Assembly: GCA_027489365.1 (NCBI GenBank)
Contig: JAIXZV010000420.1
Span: 1 to 49,140 of the forward strand
Direction: 5' to 3'
DNA: 49,140 bases
Origin: Sphingomonadales bacterium
Lineage (GTDB): Bacteria > Pseudomonadota > Alphaproteobacteria > Sphingomonadales > Sphingomonadaceae
The notes under the pieces are model-generated. The model worked only from the letters and a program-made list of their open reading frames with translations, made no database searches and had not been told where the DNA came from. The position numbers and the translations under genes are program-made. Each line of letters begins with the position of its first letter. Positions within the stretch are counted from its first letter, which is position 1. Below are positions 1,650-17,498 of this stretch, one piece after another.

Positions 1650-2830
1650 GCGGCCCTTCTGAGAATTTCCATGATGTCGGCAGGCTGGGTCACCGGACGC
1701 GGATTGGTCCGGCCCCAGATGTCGAGCATGGTATATTCCGCGACTTGCTGGAAGCGGTCTTCGGTGACGCCGACTTCGCTGAGCGTACGCGGCATTCCGA
1801 GCGCGCGGATGAAGGCATCGAGGCTCGCGCCTGCGGTGGCGTGGGTGTTGCCGAGGCACGCGTTGATGCGGTGCTGGCGGCTGTCGTCATGCTCGGCATT
1901 CCAGTCGAGCACATACGGCGCCATCACACACGAGCAATGGCCGTGCGGCACGTTGCAGGTGCCGCCCAGGATATGGCTGATCGCATGGCTGGCCCCCATC
2001 GGCACGCCGCCGATGATCGAGATCATCGATTGCCACGCACCGATCTGGCACTTCAGCCGCCCCGCCATGTCCTTGGGGTCGGTCTTGGTGCGCGACAGCC
2101 CCTCGACCAGCAGGCGCAGCGCATTGTCGGCCAGGCCGTCGGCGAAATCGTTCGACATTTTGGAGCCGAGCGTCTCGACCGCATGATCGACCGAGCGCAC
2201 CCCGGTCGACAGCCACAGCCATTCGGGCGTGTGCACCGTCATCGCGGGATCGAGCACGACCATGATCGGCGCCATCGTGCGATGCTCATAGCCCTGCTTG
2301 TGCGCGGTCACTTCGTCGGTCGATCCCGACAGCGCGTTGAACTCGCCGCCCGACAGCGTCGTCGGCACGCAGATCGTGCGGATGTCGGGGCCGATCTTGA
2401 CCGGGTTGATGACATTGCCGGCGTCGTCGACATAGGTGCGCAGCGGCTCGAAATCCTCGACCGTGCGGACATTGTGCTTGAGCAGCAGTGGGATGATCTT
2501 GCCCGCGTCGATCACCGATCCGCCACCGATCCCGACGATCAGATCGGCATCGACCGCGCGTGCGGCGTCTGCAGCGGCCAGCACGTGCGCGCGCGGCGCG
2601 TGCGAGGCTATCCCGCTGTGCGTCCCGGCATGACGATCGCCGAGTGCCGCCTCGATCTTGGCGATTTCATCGGTTTCGCGGCGCAGCGTGTCGGACGTCA
2701 GCAGGAACACCCGCCGCGCGCCCATGACTTCGGCTTGCTCGCGCACCGCCTCGCTCGCGGGCTTGCCCATCGTCACGCGCTCGGTGACGGTGAAGGTCAT
2801 CTGGCTTGGGATCACGTCTGCCACGGTCAT
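1646..2830 (-). CDS. Iron-containing alcohol dehydrogenase
   Basis: 394 aa; GGGSVIDAGKII and HAISHILGGTCNVPHGHCSCVMAPYVL motifs of the Fe-ADH family. Overlaps the TetR start by 4 nt. Confidence 0.9.
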   Translation of the reverse strand: MTVADVIPSQMTFTVTERVTMGKPASEAVREQAEVMGARRVFLLTSDTLRRETDEIAKIEAALGDRHAGTHSGIASHAPRAHVLAAADAARAVDADLIVGIGGGSVIDAGKIIPLLLKHNVRTVEDFEPLRTYVDDAGNVINPVKIGPDIRTICVPTTLSGGEFNALSGSTDEVTAHKQGYEHRTMAPIMVVLDPAMTVHTPEWLWLSTGVRSVDHAVETLGSKMSNDFADGLADNALRLLVEGLSRTKTDPKDMAGRLKCQIGAWQSMISIIGGVPMGASHAISHILGGTCNVPHGHCSCVMAPYVLDWNAEHDDSRQHRINACLGNTHATAGASLDAFIRALGMPRTLSEVGVTEDRFQQVAEYTMLDIWGRTNPRPVTQPADIMEILRRAA

Positions 2831-2886
2831 CTCCTACTGCGACGCATATCTTTGCGGTCTTGCGGGCATTATGCACATGGGCTGCC

Positions 2887-2910
2887 TACTGGCTAGTATA
2901 TTTATATACT
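2887..2910. promoter_or_regulatory. Candidate operator/promoter region between Fe-ADH and CaiB
   Basis: TACTGGCTAGTATAT followed by overlapping inverted repeat AGTATA-TTTA-TATACT (2895-2910). Confidence 0.4.
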
Positions 2911-3118
2911 GATGTTCGCAAAATGGGTCTTGTCCAGCTTGACCGTGGCCATACCCGTAGGTAGCCCTGCATCTGACACGCCACGGTATACGGCCGCGGC
3001 ACCGATGCGGGAACCCAGATTGCGCGCCGATGGATCAGCACTTGCGTTCTCCTGATCGGCGCGGGATCCATGTCGCGGCACGCGCGGCGTGCGGTGGCAG
3101 CCGGGACACGGTTCGCCG

Positions 3119-4237
3119 ATGAGCGGTCCGCTGGCGGGCATCCGCGTCGTCGAATTCGCCGGATTGGGGCCGACGCCGTTCGGCGCGATGATGCTCGCCG
3201 ATATGGGTGCCGAGGTGCTGCGGATCGACCGGCATGGTGCTGAGGCCTTTGGCGGCGGCGACGCACGTGACGATTTTCTCAATCGCGGTCGCCCCTCTGT
3301 GACCGCCGATCTGAAATCGCCCGAAGGCAAAGCGCTGGCGATCGCGGCGGCCACCCGCGCCGATATCCTGATCGAAGGCTTTCGCCCCGGCGTCATGGAA
3401 CGCCTCGGCCTCGGCCCGGAGCCGCTGCTCGCCGCCAATCCGCGCCTCATCTATGCGCGCATGACCGGCTGGGGTCAGTCGGGGCCAATGACGCACAAGG
3501 CCGGGCACGACATCAATTATCTGTCGATGACCGGCGGGCTCAGCCTGATCGGACCGTTCGACGGGCCGCCGGTGCCGCCGATCAACTATGTCGCCAATTT
3601 CGGCGGCGGGGGCATGTTGCTGACGGTCGGCGTGCTCGCGGCGCTGGTCGAACGCTCGATCAGCGGGCGTGGCCAGGTCGTCGATGCCGCGATGGTCGAT
3701 GGGGCCTCTTTGCTCGCGACGCAGATTTTCGCCTGGACCGCGATGGGGCGCTGGCGGCCGCAGCGCGGCGGCAATCTGCTCGACGGCAGCGCCTATTTCT
3801 ATCGCTGCTATCGCACCGCCGACGACAAGTTCGTCGCGGTCGGCGCGCTCGAGCCGCAATTCCATGCCGCGCTGATCCGTGGCGTCGGGCTCGATCCGGG
3901 CGATTTCGGCGATCATCTCGATCCGGCGTGCTGGCCGACGCGCAACGCGCAATTGGAGGCGATCTTCGCCACCCGCGACCGGGACGCGTGGATCGCGCAT
4001 TTCGCCGATTTCGATGCGTGCCTCAGCCCGGTGCTGAGCCCGGAGGAAGCGACGCAGCATCCCGCCAATGTCGTGCGCGACGTGCATGTGACGGTGGCAG
4101 GCGCGCTGCAGCCCGCGCCAGCCCCGCGCTTCGATCGCACGCCATCGCCGCTGCCCGCGGCACCCGTCCGCGCGGGCGAGGGTGGGGCGGAGCGGCTGCG
4201 CGCCTGGGGGATCGATCCGGCTTTGACTGGCCTATAA
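3119..4237 (+). CDS. CaiB/BaiF family CoA-transferase (alpha-methylacyl-CoA racemase-like)
   Basis: MSGPLAGIRVVEFAGLGPTPFGAMMLADMGAEVLRIDR...GFRPGVMERLGLGPEPLLAANPRLIYARMTGWGQSGP: class III CoA-transferase signature. Confidence 0.92.
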   Translation: MSGPLAGIRVVEFAGLGPTPFGAMMLADMGAEVLRIDRHGAEAFGGGDARDDFLNRGRPSVTADLKSPEGKALAIAAATRADILIEGFRPGVMERLGLGPEPLLAANPRLIYARMTGWGQSGPMTHKAGHDINYLSMTGGLSLIGPFDGPPVPPINYVANFGGGGMLLTVGVLAALVERSISGRGQVVDAAMVDGASLLATQIFAWTAMGRWRPQRGGNLLDGSAYFYRCYRTADDKFVAVGALEPQFHAALIRGVGLDPGDFGDHLDPACWPTRNAQLEAIFATRDRDAWIAHFADFDACLSPVLSPEEATQHPANVVRDVHVTVAGALQPAPAPRFDRTPSPLPAAPVRAGEGGAERLRAWGIDPALTGL

Positions 4238-5131
4238 AGCGGGCGAAAGGATCGGGCGAAAGCCGGTCCCGTCGCGCACCACCCGCGCGACATGGTTGCC
4301 GCCGAAATGCGCCGGGATCAGCAACGCCTCACGATCAGCCGCCTCGCCCAGCACTTGCCGCCGCGTCTCGCGCGCTTGCTCCTGGTCCTCGCAGAACGCG
4401 CTGTTCCATTCGGGGGCGTAGATTTGCGCGGGGTGGTGGACCACATCGCCGACGAACATCGCCTCCACCCCGTCCGACGAAACACGCATTACGCTGCTGC
4501 CCGGCGTATGCCCCGGCCGCGACTGCAACACGAAGCCCGGCGCAACTTCGAACCCATCATCGGCCCATTCCGCCCGTCCAGCCTCCAGGATCGGGCGAAC
4601 GCTATCCTCATACATCCCGGCATTCACAAGTTTGCCGACATAGCCCGGCCCGACGGTCTCGACCTCGGGGTCCCAATAATCGCGGTCGTGCACCGGCAGG
4701 ACATAGCGCGCGTTGCGGAAGGTTGGTTGCCAGACGCCTTCGATCAGCCGCGTGTTCCAGCCGACATGATCGACATGGATGTGCGAACACACGACGGTAT
4801 CGATGTCTTCGGGCTGGAAACCGGCGGCGGCGAGGCGCCCGAGGAAATCGGTCTGCAGATGCGCGAAGATCGGCAGATCGGGGCGATCCTTGTCATTCCC
4901 CGCGCCGGTGTCGAACAGGATGCGCTCGGAGCCGGTATCGAGCACCCAGCTTTGCAGGCACGCGACCAGCTTGCCCGAGGCCGGATCGAAATAGTCGGGG
5001 ACGAATTCGCCCTCGCGCCGGTCCCAATCGTGCCTTTGAAAGCCCTGGAACAGCTCGCTCGGCGGGCTGAAGGTGCCGCTCCATTCTTCGATCCGGTGGA
5101 CCGCAATCTTGCCGATCTGAAAGCGGTCCAC
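4232..5131 (-). CDS. MBL-fold metallo-hydrolase
   Basis: Contains HIHVDHVGWNT (HxHxDH metal motif) and GHTPGSS. GTG start chosen at 5131; the longer listed ORF overlaps the TBDR. Confidence 0.88.
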   Translation of the reverse strand: MDRFQIGKIAVHRIEEWSGTFSPPSELFQGFQRHDWDRREGEFVPDYFDPASGKLVACLQSWVLDTGSERILFDTGAGNDKDRPDLPIFAHLQTDFLGRLAAAGFQPEDIDTVVCSHIHVDHVGWNTRLIEGVWQPTFRNARYVLPVHDRDYWDPEVETVGPGYVGKLVNAGMYEDSVRPILEAGRAEWADDGFEVAPGFVLQSRPGHTPGSSVMRVSSDGVEAMFVGDVVHHPAQIYAPEWNSAFCEDQEQARETRRQVLGEAADREALLIPAHFGGNHVARVVRDGTGFRPILSPAL

Positions 5132-13789: not shown

Positions 13790-14524
13790 ATGAGCGCCGA
13801 GTCCTATAGTTCCGCATCGGACCGGTCGCGCTGGCGCGGTATCCTCTTCGCGCTGGTGATCGAGGGGCTGATTCTGCTGCTGCTGACGACGCTCGGCAGT
13901 GGCATTTTCACGAAGGTCGAGAAACAGCCGAAGCTGACGACCTTCGACGTCCGCCCGATCGGCCCGCCGATCGCCAAGGAAGCGCAAAAGGCCAAGGTCG
14001 CGAGCAAGCGCAACCCGGTGAAGACCGCGTCGGCCGCACCACCCCCGCCGATCGCCCCGCCGCCGTCGCCGGTGAAGGCCCCGCCGACCAAGCTGATTCA
14101 GCTCAGCCCGGAGGATTATGCCGCGTCCGACATCGGCAAGATGCCGTCGGCGCAGGGCGATGGCGCGGGGCAGGACAGCGGCCGCGACAGCGTCGCAGCG
14201 TACGGGCCGGGGCAGGGGCCGGGGGGTGGCGCGCTCTACAATGCCGAATGGTATCGCGAGCCGCGCGATGCCGAACTGGCCCCGTATTTGAAGGAATATA
14301 GCAAGGGGACGGGCTGGGCGCTGATCGCGTGCAAGACCGCGCCCGATATGCGCGTCGAGAATTGCCGCTCGATCGACGAATCCCCGCCGGGCGGGGGCTT
14401 GGCGCGCGCGCTGCGGCTGGCGGCGTGGCAATTCCGCGTGCGCCCGCCACGCGTTGGGGGGAAACCGATGATCGGGGCGTGGGTGCGGATCCGGTTTGAT
14501 TTGACGGTTGGGTTTACGAAGTAG
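13790..14524 (+). CDS. TonB-like / energy-transducer-like protein
   Basis: Single N-terminal TM ([21 protein letters not shown]), proline-rich linker ([18 protein letters not shown]), C-terminal domain [34 protein letters not shown]. Confidence 0.7.
14314..14524 (+). repeat. Direct repeat copy 1: 3' end of the TonB-like gene (intact)
   Basis: CTGGGCGCTGATCGCGTGCAAGACCGC...TTGACGGTTGGGTTTACGAAGTAG; aligns with 15330-15541. Confidence 0.95.
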
Positions 14525-14590
14525 ATTTCTCGTTTCGTATTTGAAACGGTGCGAGACACGCGTGCGGCGACCACCATTTTGCTTGCACTC

Positions 14591-14609
14591 TATGCGGCAT
14601 TGCCGCATA
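14591..14609. promoter_or_regulatory. Perfect 9-1-9 palindrome, candidate toxin-antitoxin operator
   Basis: TATGCGGCA-T-TGCCGCATA, directly 5' of the probable GTG start (14619) of the toxin gene. Confidence 0.55.
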
Positions 14610-14618
14610 TTCACGAGC

Positions 14619-14951
14619 GTGCAGGCGATCATCGAAACCCACACCTATCTCGCCGATGCCAAGGCCGCTGGCATGTCGGAAGAGGAGTGCGATGATGTGA
14701 AAACCATGATCGCCACAAACCCTTTACTCGGGACACCGATCGCGGGCGGGGCGCGCAAGCTTCGGGTTGCAGGTCGCGGCAAGGGTAAGTCGGGCGGTTA
14801 TCGGGTCGTCTATTTCTTTGGCGGCGGCGATATCCCGATCTTCCTGCTCACCGTGTTTGGCAAAGGCGAAAAGGACAATCTGACCAAGGCAGAACAGAAT
14901 GCGCTCGCGGGGGTTGGAGACCGGTTGCGCGTATCATTGACCAAGAGGTGA
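14619..14951 (+). CDS. Type II toxin, RelE/HigB-like
   Basis: [95 protein letters not shown] start preferred over ATG 14592, which lies inside the palindrome. Confidence 0.85.
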
Positions 14952-14973
14952 AAGCCACGGAGGGCTGGATATT

Positions 14974-15261
14974 ATGAAGAGCGCATTTGACAAGATCATG
15001 GGCGGGCTGGATGATGCCGTTGCCTATGCCGAAGGGGACCATCGTCGCGGGCGCGTTGCCACCGTGGATGTAAAGGCCGTTCGTGCCGCGACCAAACTCA
15101 GCCAGAGCAAGTTTGCCGATACCTATCGCTTAAGCGTCGCGACCGTTCAGGACTGGGAGCAGGGACGACGCGCCCCGGACCGCAGCTCGGTCACGCTTTT
15201 GCGGATGATCGAGGCGGATCCGGCTGGTGTGCAGCGGATTATGGCGAAGATACCAGCGTGA
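14974..15261 (+). CDS. HigA/XRE-type antitoxin
   Basis: VKAVRAATKLSQSKFADTYRLSVATVQDWEQGRRAPDRSSVTLLRMIEADP: HTH of HigA-like antitoxins, immediately downstream of the toxin. Confidence 0.87.
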   Translation: MKSAFDKIMGGLDDAVAYAEGDHRRGRVATVDVKAVRAATKLSQSKFADTYRLSVATVQDWEQGRRAPDRSSVTLLRMIEADPAGVQRIMAKIPA

Positions 15262-15329
15262 GCGCCGGCCAGGCAAAGGCCGGACTTTCGTGAAGCCTCG
15301 GACTCGTACCAGAGACGAGCCATTGCACT

Positions 15330-15541
15330 CTGGGCGCTGATCGCGTGCAAGACCGCGCCCGATTTCCGCGTCGAGAATTGCCGCTCTATCGAGGAATCGC
15401 CGCCGGGCGGCGGCTTGGCGCGCGCGCTGCGGCTGGCGGCGTGGCAATTCCGCGTGCGCCCGCCGCGCGTTGGGGGGGAAGCCGATGATCGGGGCGTGGT
15501 TGCGGATTCGGTTTGATTTGACGGTTGGGTTTACGAAGTAG
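15330..15541 (+). pseudogene. Direct repeat copy 2: truncated, frameshifted copy of the TonB-like gene 3' end
   Basis: About 10 substitutions and one extra G in a G-run (7 G versus 6 G) relative to copy 1. Reads [49 protein letters not shown] then shifts frame. Confidence 0.93.
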
Positions 15542-15708
15542 GTTTGGAGCGCAATCGAAACCAAATTTGTGAAAGGAAAGCCGAGACCATTACGGAGCGG
15601 CCCACAAGGGCGACCGTTTCACTATCAGGAAGTTTCGGGCACGGCATGTAGGCTCTTCCGCCGAGTTTCAACCATCCGCGCTAGGGGCCAATTTCCGAAC
15701 TGGCACAA

Positions 15709-17006: not shown

Positions 17007-17180
17007 TTATCCAAACATGTCCCAGAGCTTCGCGACCGCATTCACTAACTTAAGAATGAATTCCAAAGCAGCGGTTGCAGCCTTCCACGTCTTCGGCGTT
17101 AGCAGTTTCTCCCGAAGGGGAGATTTACCTTCGCTTGTTCGTCGCTTCTTCTCGGCACTCGGTAACGGATTGGTATCCAT
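17007..17180 (-). CDS. 57-aa small protein, candidate retron accessory/effector (absent from supplied ORF track)
   Basis: ATG at 17180: MDTNPLPSAEKKRRTSEGKSPLREKLLTPKTWKAATAALEFILKLVNAVAKLWDMFG*. AAGAGG ribosome-binding site upstream; co-directional with HTH and RT. Confidence 0.65.
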   Translation of the reverse strand: MDTNPLPSAEKKRRTSEGKSPLREKLLTPKTWKAATAALEFILKLVNAVAKLWDMFG

Positions 17181-17432
17181 AAGATTTACCTCTTGTTATG
17201 CTCGGCGTCGGAATTGACACCCAGCTCCACCAACAAGAGATCAACGAGAGAAGAAGCACCCCCCTCAACCCTTCGCGTCCGGTCCACCCGGGCGCGCCTT
17301 ATCGGGTCGTGGGGCGGTCCCGCGGGCGGGGTCCCTACGCTGCCGACAAGTGTGAGAACTTCCTTGTGAGAAGCTCCGCGAGTGATTGCTCACCCAGAGT
17401 TTAAGTGGAATGTTGCCTTTTTCCCGAATGCT
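17181..17432 (-). ncRNA. Candidate retron msr-msd ncRNA / structured leader
   Basis: Transcribed non-coding leader with stem-loops GGGTGA-GCAA-TCACTC and GAGCTTC-TCACAAG-GAAGTTC, followed by a very GC-rich segment. Sits at the usual retron position 5' of the accessory and RT genes. a1/a2 arms and exact ends not resolved. Confidence 0.4.
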
Positions 17433-17438
17433 GAACGC

Positions 17439-17467
17439 TAAATAGGCGCACGTTCGCCAGTTGTCAA
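17439..17467 (-). promoter_or_regulatory. Near-consensus sigma70-type promoter for the retron-like operon
   Basis: Minus strand TTGACA (17467-17462), 17-nt spacer, TATTTA (17444-17439). Confidence 0.6.
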
Positions 17468-17498
17468 CAACAATTCGCTGGCAGATGACATTCTCGGG

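Follow-up and report, generated by a model that had tools for sequence, protein, structure and literature searches.

A predicted leader RNA structure closes the start of the small open reading frame in a type VI retron operon of a Sphingomonadales bacterium

In a type VI retron operon carried by a Sphingomonadales bacterium, the leader RNA is predicted to fold back onto the small open reading frame (ORF) that it precedes. Read from the sequence of a 49,140-nucleotide stretch of contig JAIXZV010000420.1 (the window), the operon has a leader with a four-hairpin junction and three helices that close the small-ORF start, these helices being conserved in position and changing in sequence. We think it more likely than not that this leader is the type VI retron ncRNA and that its 3' arm, lying inside the small effector ORF, shuts off that ORF's translation. 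Type VI retrons with a small protein are already described; the newness of the leader structure is judged from limited literature only, a search of which returned no published RNA, leader pairings, effector action, or trigger for type VI retrons.

All operon features lie on the minus strand, in the order promoter-like site, leader (about 17432-17181, 252 nt), 57-aa ORF (17180-17007; ATG, 17180-17178), Xre-type HTH gene (16960-16646; 104 aa counted from the conserved start), and retron reverse transcriptase (RT) gene (16680-15709). Against PADLOC, the RT protein matched RT_VI (3.4e-72; next model RT_III-A, 1.3e-36) and the protein of the HTH gene directly upstream matched HTH_VI (7.9e-33); Pfam broadly agrees (RVT_1 and HTH_3, respectively). 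Retron RTs carry the motifs NAXXH, YXDD, and VTG, and the RT of the window (P0001) has NAKAH, YVDD, and VTG, as read by eye. Because of the RT_VI and HTH_VI matches and the RT motifs, the operon (17432-15709) is classified from its sequence as a type VI retron. It combines the features of that type (an RT of the type VI clade, an Xre-type HTH partner, and a small auxiliary protein) with those of retrons in general (RT motifs and a structured ncRNA adjoining the RT).

The transcription start near 17432 given by the first-pass annotation is plausible: TTGACA (17467-17462) and TATTTA (17444-17439) stand 17 bp apart, and a TTGACA-like box occurs at the equivalent place in most homologs, with no site listed at 17467-17439 by a stricter consensus promoter scan. 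AGCGAA (17479-17474) and GGCGAA (17458-17453) lie on either side of the -35 box, together spanning 17453-17479, and an AGCGAA-type motif is found just 5' of the -35 box in most type VI loci, whose sequences are otherwise unrelated; these repeats are likely the operator of the HTH protein.

A toxin-antitoxin pair adjoins the retron on the plus strand (14508-15262), consisting of a RelE-like toxin ORF (Pfam, 1.8e-7) followed by an HTH-like ORF recognized by eye, and toxin-antitoxin genes flank many other type VI loci too. The two ORFs are themselves flanked by copies of a repeat (14314-14528 and 15330-15545; ~95% identity, offset 1016-1017 bases) in which the 3' end of a plus-strand gene (ORF 13790-14524) is duplicated. 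The arrangement suggests an insertion that either brought the end of the gene with it or restored it.

The 57-aa protein is cationic (charge, +5) with an amphipathic C-terminal helix. Across the type VI loci read, which range from Proteobacteria to Firmicutes, a small ORF was nearly always present 5' of the HTH gene; it typically encodes ~45 to 70 aa, with a basic N terminus and a C-terminal helix that is amphipathic or hydrophobic. By the rule applied, no common-type small ORF was seen in four loci with RT_VI matches (L002, L026, L060, and L063). Third codon positions were the most variable in 4/6 close-homolog comparisons, and searches of the small proteins against Pfam, PADLOC, and NCBIfam gave no family above cut-off. 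The small protein is probably a membrane-active effector, its toxicity being deduced from its makeup. The "small auxiliary proteins" of type VI retrons were named by Mestre et al. 2020, as quoted in the relevant passages of PMC8541194, which do not describe their action. Directly 3' of the type VI RT, two plasmid loci carry a TIR-domain gene (L076, Microvirga, 3956-4915; L098, Pseudosulfitobacter, 2381-3346), a possible extra effector.

Type VI loci were drawn from whole-genome searches, a plasmid collection, and a phage collection; the first two sources yielded six alignable leaders of close homologs (L004, L073 from Sphingobium plasmid AP027326, and L081 to L084; alignment A1). A further search around G486 yielded no additional loci. 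When the leader plus ORF was searched with blastn, there was no match in the phage collection, and only L073 matched in the plasmid collection. Rfam 15 gave 0 matches above the gathering score anywhere in the window. The 252-nt leader folds at -104.2 kcal/mol, versus -89.3 kcal/mol for 200 dinucleotide shuffles (z, -3.1), so it is more stable than its composition-matched controls.

Conserved structure with compensatory changes was found upstream of the RT genes, in the form of a four-hairpin junction common to seven close homologs (alignment A1 and helix counts). The junction (17267-17401) is closed by AACTC (17401-17397) and GGGTT (17271-17267), a pair changed on both sides in L083 (AACCT/AGGTT), and encloses SL1 to SL4. 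Both stem-loops seen in the first-pass annotation are present, with pairing kept in six homologs: SL1 (GGGTGA-GCAA-TCACTC, 17395-17380) and SL2 (17377-17355), each msr-like. By hand count, 42/42 cells are paired in SL1 and 41/42 in SL2, with both-side changes in 4/6 pairs of either stem. SL3 (17298-17350) has a conserved base, CTTGTCGG/CCGATAAG, and a variable GC-rich interior. SL4 (17275-17295; GCGCCCG/CGGACGC) is nearly invariant in close homologs, with a single both-side change (L083). Across alignment A1, 95% of cells are paired, versus 36 to 54% with partners slid one to three columns, and 7/32 pairs are changed on both sides among the six homologs (shuffle mean, 2.4; 0/500 shuffles). CCAC/GTGG and CAAC/GTTG are fully conserved, the former with one both-side change (CCGC/GCGG in L083); because they cross each other, neither was adopted.

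What the first-pass annotation had called a candidate msr-msd (17181-17432) thus holds as a conserved, covarying leader ncRNA of the RT operon; its GC-rich tract, present at about 17344-17275, consists of the variable SL3 plus SL4 of the multi-hairpin junction, each of them a candidate msd. The long-range pairing suggested to enclose that tract (CTTGT/CGG/CGT/GGGA with TTCC/ACG/CCG/ACAAG) is complementary in the window and loses its partner in L004 and L083. It was rejected: homologs instead pair CTTGTCGG with CCGATAAG in SL3 and AACAAGAG with CTCTTGTT in the SD hairpin described below.

SL3 and SL4 bear on where the RT template lies, the candidates being three: SL3, SL4, and the SD/AUG region. 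In a conventional retron arrangement, SL3 and/or SL4 (the GC-rich tract) would be the msd, whereas the leader-ORF helices would serve separately to control translation. The conserved base and variable interior of SL3 suit such a role, as do the strong SL4-like hairpins of changing sequence found upstream of the X segment (below) in most type VI loci folded. Retron a1/a2 arms are usually longer than 5 bp, whereas the only inverted repeat directly around SL1 to SL4 is the 5-bp AACTC/GGGTT, and the longer arm pair ends in the ORF. We regard this arrangement as possible, if on the unlikely side. AACTC/GGGTT, although a real pairing, was dismissed as the main a1/a2 since it has 5 bp only and is internal. 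In a group of Acinetobacter plasmids (L093, L094, L096, L099, and L101), TTTTT comes directly after the hairpin in the SL4 position, which thereby resembles an intrinsic terminator; attenuation is possible in that group.

The reading that we prefer, translational shutoff by an in-ORF 3' arm, draws on helices formed between the leader and the small ORF. The first-pass annotation had left the a1/a2 arms undefined. An arm pair with a1/a2 topology does exist, and its 3' arm falls outside the interval 17181-17432, inside the small ORF; the interval ends one base before the ATG and so omits the structure's 3' half. The arm a1 (GCATTCGG, 17424-17431), located at the transcript's 5' end, is complementary to a2 (CCGAGTGC, 17155-17162; +18 to +25 of the ORF, codons 7 to 9), which lies just before X'. 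The second segment, X (TGCTTCTTCTC, 17248-17258, at -78), is complementary to X' (GAGAAGAAGCG, 17143-17153; +27 to +37). In four homologs, both sides of the leader-ORF pairing are altered together: TGCGTTTTCTC/GAGAAGACGCA in L081, CACAATCGA/TCGATTGTG in L082, GACGCTGGAAG/CTTCTAGCGTT in L083, and AGTTCTGTCTC/GAGGCAGAACT in L084. Together, a1 and X are predicted to bind codons 7 to 13 side by side. Among the loci in which both helices could be identified, most have a2 abutting X', so that two leader segments together occupy ~20 nt of the ORF. Since two separate leader segments bind the ORF start in tandem, the predicted structure is a pseudoknot. At 8 bp in the window and 6/8 in L073, a1/a2 is a short helix, and it is weak in L080, L091, and L098; the Scytonema and Enterococcus loci have the pattern only in part.

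The third helix, the SD hairpin (17188-17241), sits just 5' of the start codon, with the ribosome-binding site AAGAGG (17194-17189) buried in its outer stem; the hairpin sequences are changed in homologs. The predicted unpaired probability of the SD is 0.00 to 0.37 in the full transcript, versus 0.25 to 0.86 in a message cut at -25. In many loci, the apical loop (~17221-17208) keeps a CAATTCC- or CAATCCT-like sequence while the stem changes, and it may be a protein contact.

Recurrence of the three helices was assessed by exchanging partners between loci. The score was the best contiguous pairing between fixed leader windows and fixed ORF windows, summed over loci, and the null was obtained with partners exchanged between loci. 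Synonymous-codon shuffling per locus with a 285-nt leader was underpowered (p, 0.03 to 0.9), and partner shuffling was used instead. Across 18 divergent type VI loci, with windows set after part of the data had been seen, X/X' scored 371.5 against 249.9 ± 14.5 (z, 8.4), a1/a2 scored 320 against 256.7 ± 10.3 (z, 6.1), and the SD hairpin scored 356 against 254.9 ± 11.8 (z, 8.5), each with 0/100000 shuffles; three control window pairs gave z values of -0.6, -1.7, and 0.7. For L082, the start was taken as the GTG with a ribosome-binding site in preference to an upstream ATG.

Because the first windows had been set after seeing part of the data, 15 further loci were scored with the windows unchanged. 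Of these, nine represented a set of 12 plasmid loci (Staphylococcus, Enterococcus, Acinetobacter, a cyanobacterium, and others; L074, although obtained earlier, was previously unused), and six were phage borne. X/X' (z, 6.6; 0/100000), a1/a2 (z, 3.8; 48/100000), and the SD hairpin (z, 5.7; 0/100000) again exceeded the null, with control windows at a z of -0.4; the 15-locus counts are not fully independent, because some loci are kin to one another or to earlier loci (L090 is related to L078, and L105 to L108). These sequence comparisons place the three helices at constant positions across type VI loci whose sequences are unrelated. Type VI retrons with the same leader-ORF pairing were also seen within phage genomes (L103 to L109; Burkholderia KS5, P2_2H1, Yersinia, Shewanella, Klebsiella, and Pasteurella).

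The helices can be placed in a mechanism as follows. The leader RNA runs into the small ORF, where a1 and X would pair with codons 7 to 13 and the hairpin would cover the ribosome-binding site. The folded RNA would hold the RT and serve as its msr-msd template, and in this folded state the small protein, presumably a membrane-active effector, would not be made. Phage infection that disturbs the RT, cDNA, or RNA would open the start site, and the effector would then arrest or kill the cell. The HTH protein would repress the promoter at the AGCGAA repeats.

Covering of the SD by RNA structure, indicated here by prediction and covariation, is also known from type I toxin-antitoxin messages, in which the 5' end of the toxin mRNA pairs with a remote segment of the same mRNA or with the coding start. 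These resemblances, together with the toxin-antitoxin genes that are common neighbors, would fit a leader that is only a cis-acting translational lock on a type I-like toxin message, with the RT using another RNA or acting without this leader. Against such a separation, every locus read has a retron-clade RT beside the leader RNA, the RT keeps its retron motifs, and a second copy of the leader is absent from the genome to which the window belongs; we consider this reading improbable.

A further alternative adds a template assignment to the translational lock without contradicting it. The start region of the small ORF would itself be the msd, giving a cDNA antisense to the effector start, and reverse transcription itself would be the antitoxin. 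The SD/AUG region would qualify as template under the canonical geometry, with a priming G after a1 and copying from the base next to a2: from that G, the RT would copy codons 1 to 6, the AUG, and the SD hairpin up to X/X' (~85 nt), and RNase H removal of the template would destroy the message. Phage interference with the RT, the cDNA, or RNase H would, if this were true, release toxin synthesis. Known retrons have the same succession of a1, msr-like hairpins, hairpin, and a2; the base after a1 is a G in the window (17423) and in several homologs; and X/X', which adjoins a1/a2, would delimit the template. As msd hairpins, SL3 and SL4 are just as good, however, and the distance from the G to a1 is not fixed across all loci. 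Known RT-DNAs measure 40 to 160 nt (PMC8989520), a range that includes ~85 nt, but RNA secondary structure did not set termination in known retrons according to that one study. On this evidence, we rate the ORF start as an unlikely template. The likelihoods attached to these readings do not sum to one, because placing the msd either at the ORF start or in SL3/SL4 refines, and does not exclude, the explanation that we prefer, namely, a type VI retron ncRNA whose in-ORF arm shuts off translation.

The conserved RNA architecture points to translational control of the effector in type VI retrons, in contrast to the retrons of the literature consulted, in which the effector protein is kept inactive by an RT-RNA-DNA complex. 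The pairings specify exact bases to mutate, offer a route to the RNA elsewhere among type VI loci, and allow one to ask directly whether the toxin gene is silenced by the reverse transcriptase of its operon.

The type I toxin-antitoxin messages hok, tisB, and aapA1 encode a small hydrophobic or amphipathic protein, and the window shares with them such a protein, a structure-hidden SD, and a 5' end that pairs far along the message; it differs in that its ORF lies in an operon with an RT and an HTH gene. The analogue of their antisense RNA antitoxin would be the antisense cDNA, were the ORF start the msd. Type VI retrons, as presented in the passages of PMC8541194 that quote Mestre et al. 2020, match the window in that a single operon holds RT_VI, HTH_VI, and a small auxiliary protein; no RNA is described in those passages, whereas the window has a leader, in-ORF arms, and an SD hairpin. 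Retrons with known RT-DNA (Eco1/Ec86 and others; PMC8989520) resemble it in their RT motifs, 5' and 3' arms around stem-loops, and operon effector, and differ from the window, as read from its sequence alone, in that its 3' arm is inside a coding sequence, beside a second helix making a pseudoknot. DRT2, in the portions of PMC12039810 and PMC11100668 that describe it, likewise pairs a defense-associated RT with an adjacent pseudoknotted RNA and a linked toxic protein; in the window, by comparison, the genome already contains the ORF, the RT is a retron-clade enzyme, and nothing implies repeat synthesis.
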